From Actinomycetota bacterium (lineage in GTDB: Bacteria > Actinomycetota > Thermoleophilia > RBG-16-64-13): a stretch of 49,893 nt of DNA. Position numbers and translations under genes: made by a program. The notes below the pieces were generated by a model, which was not told the DNA's origin, did no database searches, and saw nothing but the letters and a program-made list of their open reading frames with translations. Where the stretch lies: NCBI GenBank assembly GCA_012514635.1, contig JAAYZX010000007.1, positions 87,735 through 137,627 on the forward strand, in the 5' to 3' direction. This document shows positions 3,481 through 34,364 of the stretch, piece by piece (the stretch's first letter is position 1; each line of letters starts with the position of its first letter).

Positions 3481-3723
3481 ATGGCGGTCTCGATCAGACT
3501 GGCCAGGCGGGGAAGCAAAAAGAACCCTATCTATCGCGTGATGGTTGCGGACTCACGTGCTCCACGTGATGGGCGTTTCATTGACAGTATCGGGCTCTAC
3601 AATCCTCAGACGGATCCCTCTACCATCGAGATCGATGAGGAGAGGGCCCGCAAGTGGTTGTCCGAGGGCGCTCAGCCCACCGACACGGTGCGGAATCTTC
3701 TGGTAATCAAGGGCATCTTGTAA
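3481..3723 (+). CDS. rpsP: Ribosomal protein bS16
   Basis: Small-subunit protein needed for 30S assembly, 80 residues. The N-terminus [20 protein letters not shown] and the [14 protein letters not shown] segment are diagnostic. ATG 3481 is placed 5 bases after AGGAGG; an in-frame GTG six bases upstream lies inside that site and is rejected. The 69-base gap from ffh contains weak inverted repeats (GGCCGG 3434-3439 with CCGGCC 3457-3462). It heads the rpsP-khpA-rimM-trmD-rplS ribosome-maturation cluster. Confidence 0.97.
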
Positions 3724-3726
3724 GAG

Positions 3727-3975
3727 ATGTCTGTGGATCCCGACCCCAAGGAGTTGCTCGAGTACTTGGCCCGCTGTCTTGTAGAGCAGAAGGAAGAAGT
3801 GCGGGTGGAGGAACGCGAGACCGACGCCGGTGTCGTTTTAGAGCTTCGTGTAGCCAAGGACGAGGTGGGGAAGGTAATAGGACGTCAGGGCCGCATAGCT
3901 CGGGCCCTGCGCACTCTGATCAAGGCGGGCTCGGTACGCAGCGGTAGGAAGACCATTATCGAGATTGTTGACTGA
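3727..3975 (+). CDS. khpA: KH-domain RNA-binding protein KhpA
   Basis: Small (82-residue) single-KH protein of the YlqC/KhpA family, always found next to rpsP in Gram-positive bacteria. The nucleic-acid-binding GxxG loop is seen as VIGRQGRI around residues 45-52. In other species KhpA pairs with KhpB (Jag) and affects cell division and small-RNA binding; no khpB is present in this window. The stop overlaps the rimM start region, which suggests coupled translation. Confidence 0.92.
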   Translation: MSVDPDPKELLEYLARCLVEQKEEVRVEERETDAGVVLELRVAKDEVGKVIGRQGRIARALRTLIKAGSVRSGRKTIIEIVD

Positions 3976-4513
3976 GAAAAAGCAGGTGGGCAGACCTGAT
4001 TGGATCGTGGTGGGGCACGTCCAGCGTGCACACGGTCTGCACGGTGAGGTTCGGGTAGTTAACGATTCTGACAATCCGGATCGCTTCGTGAAGGGCAGCG
4101 TGGTGTTCTGCCGCAGAAGAGAGGAAGTCTCTTCTGCAACGGAACGCAGCGAGCTTGTGATTGCGGCCGTTCGTCCTACGACGGGCGCGTTGCTCATCTC
4201 GTTTGCAGGCGTCCCCGACCGGACGGCGGCGGAGGCGCTGGGCGGCTGCATACTTGAGATTCCCTCCTCCTCCCTGCCCGTACTACCCGAGGGTGAGTAC
4301 TATCCTTTTGAGTTGGCGGGTCTGCACGTGGAAGACGAGCACGGCGATCTCTTGGGGGAAGTTGTGGAACTTCTGGACACACCGGCCCAGCCGGTTCTCA
4401 ATCTGCGGCTCAGTGACGGCGGCATGCTGCTCGTTCCCTTCACTATGGAGGCGGTTCCGACGATAGATCTGCCGGGCGGGCGACTTGTGGTCCTGCGCAG
4501 ATTTGTAGGCTGA
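3965..4513 (+). CDS. rimM: 16S rRNA processing protein RimM
   Basis: Ribosome-maturation factor that binds uS19 during 30S head assembly. The N-terminal beta-barrel motif VGHVQRAHGLHGEVRVV and the C-terminal PRC-barrel region (YYPFELAGLHVE, then LLVPFTMEAVPTIDL) are clear; 182 residues. The start is uncertain: TTG 3965 or TTG 3968 overlap the khpA stop, and GTG 3986 (MGRPDWIVVGHV) is also possible. None has a strong ribosome-binding site. The position between khpA and trmD is standard. Confidence 0.93.
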   Translation: MLTEKKQVGRPDWIVVGHVQRAHGLHGEVRVVNDSDNPDRFVKGSVVFCRRREEVSSATERSELVIAAVRPTTGALLISFAGVPDRTAAEALGGCILEIPSSSLPVLPEGEYYPFELAGLHVEDEHGDLLGEVVELLDTPAQPVLNLRLSDGGMLLVPFTMEAVPTIDLPGGRLVVLRRFVG

Positions 4514-4568
4514 ACGGCAGGATGCCGGCAGCGGTCTGTGTTTTGAAGGGGGGAGTACGAGTAGGCGA

Positions 4569-5297
4569 ATCGACATCTTCACGCTGGTACCGGAAGCCTT
4601 CTCGTGGTTCGTTGACCAGCATCCCTTGAGCGAGGCCATCAAGGGCGGTGTCGTCCGGGTTAAGATTCACAATATCCGTGATCACACCCGGCTGCTGCAC
4701 GGGGAGGTCGACGATACTCCTTATGGCGGCGGGCCCGGCATGGTCATGCGGGTCGATGCCGTGGGCTGGGCGCTTGAGGATGTGTTTGGGATACCTCCAC
4801 AGAATGTGCGCAGAGAGCGTCGGGTGGTGGTCCTGTCGGCGGCGGGGGAACCGTTCGATGACGGTGTGGCCGGCAAACTCGCCTGCGATACGCGAGATTT
4901 GGTTTTTCTCTGTGGTCGCTTCGAGGGTTTCGACGCGCGGGTGAGTGGGCTCTTCGCTACGGATGAACTGTCTGTGGGGCCGTATGTGGTTGCCGGTGGC
5001 GAGTTGCCGGCCATGATCGTGGTGGAGGCTCTGGTACGCAAAATGCCGGGGGTGCTGGGTAACCAGGCAAGTACGCTGGAAGAGTCCTTCTCCGCCGCTT
5101 TGGGTGGAGCAGGCGAATATCCTCATTTCACCCGTCCCCGTGAGTATCTGGGAAGCGAGGTGCCCGAGATTCTCGTCAGCGGCAATCATGGGGCCATAGC
5201 CGCTTGGCGGCGCAGCATGACGAGGCTCTCGGCGTGGGCGGAATGGAGTGGAGTCTCGTCCTCTCACGGAGGCGGAATGGAATCGATAGACGGCTGA
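4569..5297 (+). CDS. trmD: tRNA (guanine37-N1)-methyltransferase TrmD, non-canonical start
   Basis: SAM-dependent methyltransferase making m1G37 in tRNA, which prevents +1 frameshifting. The SPOUT-fold signatures are intact: YGGGPGMVMR, GRFEGFDARV, and the knot segment ELSVGPYVVAGGELPAM, with the C-terminal EYPHFTRPREYLG. Conserved N-terminal sequence RIDIFTLVPEAF is encoded from 4566 on, but no ATG, GTG or TTG exists between the in-frame TAG at 4506 and TTG 4626, which would remove some 20 conserved residues. A strong GAAGGGGGGAG site (4545-4555) precedes. The start set here is ATC 4569; AGG 4563, which aligns with the family's Met, is the other candidate. Confidence 0.9.
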   Translation: MDIFTLVPEAFSWFVDQHPLSEAIKGGVVRVKIHNIRDHTRLLHGEVDDTPYGGGPGMVMRVDAVGWALEDVFGIPPQNVRRERRVVVLSAAGEPFDDGVAGKLACDTRDLVFLCGRFEGFDARVSGLFATDELSVGPYVVAGGELPAMIVVEALVRKMPGVLGNQASTLEESFSAALGGAGEYPHFTRPREYLGSEVPEILVSGNHGAIAAWRRSMTRLSAWAEWSGVSSSHGGGMESIDG

Positions 5298-33113: not shown

Positions 33114-34364
33114 ATTCAGGAATATAGGCTGGAAACACTGTCCAACGGTCAGCAGCTCATCACTGAGCGGCTGGGTCATCTGCGTTCCATATGTCTGGGA
33201 TTCTGGATTCCGACAGGATCACGTAACGAAGATGATGCGCATGCCGGGGCCACCCACTTCATTGAGCACCTGTTGTTCAAGGGTTCGTCCCGGTATACGG
33301 CGGAGGAGATAGCGCAGGAGTTCGACGGCATCGGCGGCGAGCTGAATGCAGCCACCTCCAAGGAGTACGTGGTGGTGTACGGTCGTTTTCTCAACCGGCA
33401 TCTGGAGCGCGCCCTGGACGTGCTGGTGGATATGCTGCTCACACCCACCTTCGCGGATTTGGATAGGGAGCGCCAGGTTGTGCTGGAGGAGATTGCCATG
33501 TACGAGGACGCTCCCCAGGACCTGATCCACGATCTCTTTGCGCAGCAGGTATTCGGTGACCATCCCCTAGGTCATGCCGTGTTGGGAACTCGCAACAGCA
33601 TTGCCGAGATGCCGGAGAAACAAATTCGCGCTTATCACCACCACCACTTCGCCCTGAGCGACATGGTGGTGGCTGCGGCGGGAGATATCGATCACGATGA
33701 GCTGCGTGAGCTGCTGCTCAGCAAACACAATACACACAACGGCCACGGGACCCTGCGTCCTGTGACGGATGTGGCTTGGGCGCCAAGGACATCGTTCCTG
33801 GCCAAGGATACTGAGCAGATGCACGTGTGTCTGGGCGGTCCGGGAATGGCTCGTAACGACGAGCGTCGCTACGCACTATCCGTGATGGACGGCTTGTTTG
33901 GAGGTTCTCTCAGCTCGCGACTGTTCCAAGAGGTACGGGAGAAGCGCGGGCTTGTCTACAGCATCTTCTCTTTTGCGGCCATGTATCGGGAAACCGGTTT
34001 GATGGGCGTGTACTTTGGATGTAGGCCGGAGCGGCTCGTCGAGGTGATGGATACGGTGCGCCGCGAGATCGGTCGTTTGCGTGATCAGCCCGTGGGAGAG
34101 GAAGAGTTGATTCGTTCCCGGGAGCATTTAAAGGGGAGGATCATCCTGGGCCTGGAGAGCACTTCCAGTCGCATGACGCGATTGGGTAGGGGGCAAGTCA
34201 CTCAATCTGAGATCCTGTCGCTGGACGAGATCGCCGCCCGCATCGATGCGGTTACCGCCGCCGATATTCAGTCATTGGCCGAAGAGTTGCTGGATCCGGA
34301 TTGCCTGACGATAACGGCCATCGGCGCAGATGAAGATGTCTTTCGCGCCGCCGTTCAAGTCTAA
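33114..34364 (+). CDS. M16 family zinc peptidase, apparent ATT start
   Basis: Processing-peptidase-like M16 protease (MlpA/YmxG group), usually adjacent to pnp. Zinc motif HxxEH is HFIEH with the family context GSRNEDDAHAGATHFIEHLL, and the downstream Glu in ELNAATSKEYVV. The conserved N-terminus YRLETLSNGQQLITE is encoded directly after the pnp stop, but the frame has no ATG, GTG or TTG before TTG 33273, which would delete the HxxEH zinc site. ATT 33114 lies nine bases after AGAAGGG and gives a normal N-terminus and 416 residues. Amber read-through from pnp, in the same frame, is a less likely alternative. Confidence 0.9.
   Translation: MQEYRLETLSNGQQLITERLGHLRSICLGFWIPTGSRNEDDAHAGATHFIEHLLFKGSSRYTAEEIAQEFDGIGGELNAATSKEYVVVYGRFLNRHLERALDVLVDMLLTPTFADLDRERQVVLEEIAMYEDAPQDLIHDLFAQQVFGDHPLGHAVLGTRNSIAEMPEKQIRAYHHHHFALSDMVVAAAGDIDHDELRELLLSKHNTHNGHGTLRPVTDVAWAPRTSFLAKDTEQMHVCLGGPGMARNDERRYALSVMDGLFGGSLSSRLFQEVREKRGLVYSIFSFAAMYRETGLMGVYFGCRPERLVEVMDTVRREIGRLRDQPVGEEELIRSREHLKGRIILGLESTSSRMTRLGRGQVTQSEILSLDEIAARIDAVTAADIQSLAEELLDPDCLTITAIGADEDVFRAAVQV

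Follow-up and report, generated by a model that had tools for sequence, protein, structure and literature searches.

The trmD gene (tRNA guanosine(37)-N1-methyltransferase) of the window, by which we mean the whole stretch of 49,893 nucleotides analyzed here, has no ATG, GTG or TTG codon where its conserved N-terminus begins. Judged by its sequence, the gene is intact and, from codon 4566 onward, under selection; TTG 4626, its earliest in-frame canonical codon, is not the start; and initiation probably takes place at 4557–4563, directly 3' of a strong Shine-Dalgarno (SD) site. The most likely reading, to which we give about an even chance, is that this metagenome-like assembly carries a one-base consensus error or a minor population variant here, such that the assembled base difference would not be the true dominant sequence.

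Results

The trmD reading frame and its setting

The source genome comprises 2.34 Mb in 129 contigs and is an estimated ~98% complete; the window is part of contig 8 and is identical in sequence to its whole-genome copy. Here trmD is found in the usual rpsP-rimM-trmD-rplS gene order, with a small KH-like ORF after rpsP. The features of this block and the candidate start codons are:

3481–3723, + strand: rpsP (ribosomal protein S16), which opens the block
3727–3975, + strand: small ORF between rpsP and rimM, which from its position and GKVIGRQGRIARALR motif we take to encode a putative KH-domain RNA-binding protein
3965–4513, + strand: rimM
4545–4555, + strand: SD site GAAGGGGGGAG, best register AAGGGGG at 4546–4552, about −13.8 kcal/mol
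4557–4559, + strand: ACG, near-cognate start candidate, SD spacing 4, aligned with the ATG of G009 and G014 (ATG ACC CGC CGC)
4560–4562, + strand: AGT, where 12 of 15 family members have RTG (RTG ARG CGN), spacing 7–8
4563–4565, + strand: AGG, where distant TrmDs (E. coli, class level) have their Met and close relatives the Lys/Arg codon 2, spacing 10
4566–5297, + strand: trmD body, single copy, intact
4569–4571, + strand: ATC, near-cognate, 16 nt from the SD core, an unlikely start
4626–4628, + strand: TTG, first canonical codon in frame, where a start would cost 20 conserved residues
5380–5724, + strand: rplS (ribosomal protein L19), ATG start

The open frame extends from the TAG at 4506–4508 to the stop ending at 5297, and within it the conserved opening of TrmD, RIDIFTLVPEAFSW, begins at 4566. 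The in-frame codons after the TAG are GCT GAA CGG CAG GAT GCC GGC AGC GGT, followed by CTG TGT TTT GAA GGG GGG AGT(4554) ACG(4557) AGT(4560) AGG(4563) CGA(4566) ATC(4569), with the sequence AGTACGAGTAGGCGA at 4554–4568, and neither ATG, GTG nor TTG is found before TTG 4626. Re-reading the frame thus bore out the original prediction of a trmD that lacks these codons at its conserved N-terminus, correct in every coordinate. Among near-cognate candidates, that prediction had listed AGG 4563 and ATC 4569. It had omitted ACG 4557, the counterpart in the alignment of the ATG in two members of the family, and the likewise in-frame CTG 4536. By simple arithmetic (3/61 codons) a run of 39 codons without the three canonical starts is expected ~14% of the time. 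The absence is therefore unremarkable by chance; the anomaly is the contrast with 109 of 109 other trmD loci.

trmD is intact upstream of TTG 4626

Read from 4557, the protein scores narrowly above both NCBIfam TrmD cut-offs (NF000648, 223.7 vs 220; TIGR00088, 196.5 vs 195). It keeps 55 of the 58 near-invariant columns in an alignment of about 110 TrmDs, and the gene is free of internal stops and frameshifts. A Glu occupies the position of the E. coli catalytic Asp169 (EESF for EDSF) and SVGPYV takes the place of SIGDYV, both features being common to all 16 aligned TrmDs of the family (4566–5294 in the window). TrmD is essential in most bacteria, and trmD is present in the genome as a single copy. 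A genome search for Trm5 as a replacement yielded only a sub-threshold hit, no Trm5 family hit passing its cut-off, so there is no evident substitute for TrmD. With the only trmD of the genome clearing both cut-offs, 55 of 58 columns kept and no Trm5 hit above cut-off, a working start must exist.

Compared with 15 relatives, codons 4566–4625 show 99 synonymous and 68 non-synonymous differences, against 35 and 147 in the +1 frame and 19 and 234 in the stretch upstream. This synonymous excess, absent upstream, indicates that protein coding begins just before 4566. It argues both against a shortened TrmD starting at TTG 4626 and against a trmD pseudogene from which none is made, readings that we regard as very improbable although TTG 4626 is the first canonical codon in frame. 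The protein read from this TTG falls below both cut-offs (209.2 vs 220; 185 vs 195), and the sole candidate SD lies at spacing 21. Nor does a pseudogene fit with the intactness of the remaining gene and the lack of a second trmD or a Trm5 hit above cut-off. The earlier rejection of TTG 4626 as the start is thereby upheld, by coding conservation upstream of it and by the scores of the truncated protein.

Canonical starts in all other trmD loci

The other 109 trmD loci, sampled from within the family out to distant phyla, all have a canonical codon at −1 to −5 before the conserved opening: ATG in 65, GTG in 42 and TTG in 2. The start is at −1 in 88 of these loci, at −2 in 16, at −3 in 3, and at −4 and −5 in one each. 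N-terminus positions were decided by alignments, and the relatives are probably mostly metagenome assemblies. The window's own family is distributed differently, with −2 in 12 of 15 relatives, −3 in 2 and −4 in 1. Its arrangements are mostly RTG-ARG-CGN (−2), with ATG-ACC-CGC-CGC (−3) in G009 and G014 and a GTG at −4 in G004. The identification of AGG 4563 as the Met of the family therefore holds for distant TrmDs, E. coli included (the 88 loci with codon −1), and not for the window's own family, whose Met would usually fall at codon 4560. ATC or AGG at the trmD start of relatives, which the original prediction named as support, occurs in none of the 109 loci. As a non-canonical start conserved in relatives was not found among them, we do not file trmD as an established member of the genes with such starts.

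In one relative (G013, 64% complete), trmD is split over two frames, residues 1–62 and 54–232 (L112 and L113, G013:C131), an apparent frameshift.

In a tree built from TrmD and L19, G007 branches as the sister genome of the window's (support 90/91). The trmD start of G007 is AGTG-AAG-CGC, and that of the window AGT-AGG-CGA, which, on this alignment, is what aGTG-AGG-CGA minus a single base would give. Alternatively, the −3 arrangement ATG-AGT-AGG-CGA, as in G009 and G014, could have become ACG-AGT-AGG-CGA by one transition.

The Shine-Dalgarno site places initiation at 4557–4563

SD energies were approximated with a hand-written nearest-neighbor table and a consensus anti-SD (16S 3' end). On this scale about −13.8 kcal/mol is reached by 73 of 777 ORFs of the genome and by 1.2% of random positions; the trmD SD ranks with the genome's stronger sites without being exceptional. 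Measured from the SD core, the spacing is 4 for ACG 4557, 7 for AGT 4560, 10 for AGG 4563 and 16 for ATC 4569, and a GTG with one base restored would lie at 8. In the 50 strong-SD genes of the genome the spacing clusters at 4–8, with 5 of 50 at 4 and none at 16, which makes ATC 4569 unlikely and points to a start within 4557–4563. The strong SD reported at 4545–4555 is thus present, and it points to 4557–4563 rather than the previously suggested region of about 4560–4569.

Translation from AGT 4560, AGG 4563 or ATC 4569 is in our view improbable. Each has a point in its favor: AGT occupies the Met position of close relatives and AGG that of distant TrmDs, and ATC is an AUH codon (ATA, ATC or ATT), a type used elsewhere in the window's family. 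However, AGT departs from ATG in two of its three bases, AGG is among the weakest near-cognates, and ATC, proposed earlier as a start candidate, is dropped here, its distance from the SD core being one at which no strong-SD gene of the genome starts and its best alternative SD, at −5.3, not being a good one.

Least probable of the readings weighed is a start at TTG 4543 in the +1 frame, with slippage in translation or transcription on the G6 run at 4548–4553 to reach the frame of trmD. A −1 shift on GGGGGGA would take TTG AAG GGG GGA into that frame, but the SD available to this TTG is too far off to be used (−7.7 kcal/mol at spacing 18), none of the 15 relatives has a homologous arrangement, and the G6 run is better explained as the SD.

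A single-base error or variant as the likeliest source of the anomaly

If the assembled base difference is an error or a minor variant, trmD would be an intact, functional gene with initiation at 4557–4563 behind the strong SD. One base would be missing from aGTG-AGG-CGA, the arrangement of G007, or ATG-AGT-AGG-CGA, the arrangement of G009 and G014, would have been changed to ACG-AGT-AGG-CGA, and in the living cell translation would proceed from a normal GTG or ATG at 4557–4563. In favor of this reading, all 109 comparable loci, among them the 15 from the window's family with its sister genome, have a canonical start at −1 to −5, and a one-base gap separates the RTG-ARG-CGN of 12 of 15 relatives from the AGT-AGG-CGA of the window. 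The spacings of 4 (ACG), 7 (AGT) and 8 (GTG with the restored base) all lie inside the normal range of 4–8 of the genome. Moreover, the same contig carries another single-base lesion ~35 kb upstream, in an XdhC-like gene.

The assembly was compared with relatives over about 261 kb of conserved coding sequence. An elevated indel rate was not found: this comparison revealed one clear frameshift, in the XdhC-like gene (G000:C8:57557-58377, locus L116, outside the window), where a single G is missing (CTGGCATG) and G007 implies CTG GGC ATG. With so low a rate the assembly is clean, which makes it unlikely a priori that an error should strike any of the roughly 180 starts tested. The lineage, moreover, uses non-canonical starts in other genes, so an odd start does not by itself imply an error. 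Lineage-specific ACG starts in essential genes are likewise rare, with only three of 183 conserved genes lacking a canonical start, and the rates of assembly error and of start-less genes are both too small to discriminate error from biology.

A frameshift rate derived from G004 queries was discarded as artefactual, G004 itself being rich in indels (24 candidates in the reverse direction), and G009, G002 and G007 took its place. The other flagged frameshifts were judged by inspection to be G004 assembly indels, or wrong-frame or two-gene joins from G002 and G009. G004 (loci L134–L173) consists of long contigs in which apparent frameshifts are numerous among conserved genes, much like a long-read assembly left unpolished.

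A possible near-cognate ACG start

A less probable reading, but one that deserves serious consideration, is that the sequence is correct and that trmD starts at the near-cognate ACG 4557. The initiator tRNA would then decode ACG inefficiently, aided by the strong SD, and TrmD output would be low and could be IF3-sensitive. ACG 4557 aligns with the ATG of G009 and G014, giving M-S-R-R-I-D vs M-T-R-R-L-D, and its SD is strong, with a spacing of 4 as in 5 of 50 genes. The low indel rate of the assembly and the AUH starts that the lineage keeps in gmk, mreB, an M16 peptidase and infC are also in its favor, as are two precedents, S. aureus with AUA and AUU starts that follow extended SDs (PMC13009471) and Streptomyces sigR with GTC (PMC5472188). 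Against it, none of the 109 other trmD loci uses such a start, the other unusual starts of the lineage are AUH and not ACG, and the sister genome G007 starts one codon later. An ACG start is also much weaker than AUG, and TrmD is an essential protein in most bacteria. The original prediction had offered a rare non-AUG start, a mutation or a base-call error; this was the right list, and all three are still candidates.

AUH starts in other genes of the family

Of the 183 conserved genes in the start test, only mreB, the M16 peptidase and trmD are, after inspection, truly without a canonical start. Most of the 14 genes flagged in the ORF-by-ORF test proved, when inspected one by one, to be alignment run-on. 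An automatic search for aligned non-canonical start columns returned mostly internal Ile/Leu columns, from which only mreB, M16 and gmk survived inspection. The family counts given below come from motif patterns that name the start codon class; they find only genomes that keep the motif and hence are no census. One of these genes lies in the window:

33114–34364, + strand: M16 peptidase, ATT start only two codons past the preceding gene's stop, with ATT or ATC in five other family genomes

The M16 peptidase has no canonical codon for more than 50 codons, and its start is AUH in 6 of 6 motif-matching genomes, the window's included. For gmk (G000:C8:74661 in the source genome), with a pattern that allowed ATN, GTN and TTN, the start is ATC or ATA in all 16 motif-matching family genomes, spanning ten genera, and GTG in two genomes of another family. 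The gmk of G009 is free of canonical codons ahead of the conserved P-loop; that of G007 has its first one five codons past the ATA, within the strand preceding the P-loop. The copy in the window's genome has an in-frame GTG four codons upstream and is therefore ambiguous. In mreB (G000:C16:25741, − strand) ATC or ATA is found in 10 of 10 matched genomes at an SD spacing of 5–9, though the start might instead be the later ATG of GRDM, and infC (G000:C19:4833, − strand) has ATA in 4 of 4.

On these counts, non-canonical initiation looks normal in the window's lineage, and the AUH set may be a more interesting result than trmD itself. It is possible, if rather doubtful, that the conserved AUH starts of infC, gmk, mreB and the M16 peptidase, all genes that are essential or related to growth, form an IF3-sensitive regulon across about ten genera, which trmD would have joined with ACG in the window's species.

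Discussion

Were the ACG start genuine, an essential gene, trmD, would be expressed from a near-cognate codon and cut back to TTG 4626 by gene callers; were the base an error, it would be an example of how one base makes an intact gene look startless. The AUH starts of gmk, mreB and the M16 peptidase, conserved in the family, would add to the few natural non-canonical starts on record (infC, pcnB, sigR, ccpN), and would make it testable whether nucleotide supply, cell shape and the synthesis of IF3 itself are co-regulated by the level of IF3.

The gene infC, which encodes IF3, is known with AUU, AUA or AUC as start codon, and pcnB of E. coli has AUU. Like them, trmD of the window is a conserved gene without ATG, GTG or TTG at its start, and infC has ATA in the window's family too; unlike them, it does not have an AUH codon, and its anomaly is confined to one species, whereas the start of infC is kept across genera. 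Non-canonical starts of infC are reported from both E. coli and Streptomyces, with which the ATA of the window's family agrees (PMC5472188). Streptomyces sigR, with a GTC start repressed by IF3, likewise has a start codon outside ATG, GTG and TTG that annotation overlooked (PMC5472188). In S. aureus, the AUU of cvfC1 and the AUA of ccpN are conserved starts with an extended SD, and they share with trmD a weak start codon behind a strong SD (PMC13009471), which together with sigR (PMC5472188) makes this a known mechanism. The sigR start is, however, established by mutation and immunoblot and conserved in Streptomyces (PMC5472188), and those of cvfC1 and ccpN are conserved and seen by ribosome profiling (PMC13009471), whereas that of trmD is read from DNA sequence alone. 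The remaining comparison is with single-base errors and variants of metagenome assemblies: although the indel rate of the window's assembly is low, trmD resembles them in being one base off the arrangement of its family, with a second lesion, that of the XdhC-like gene, on the same contig.
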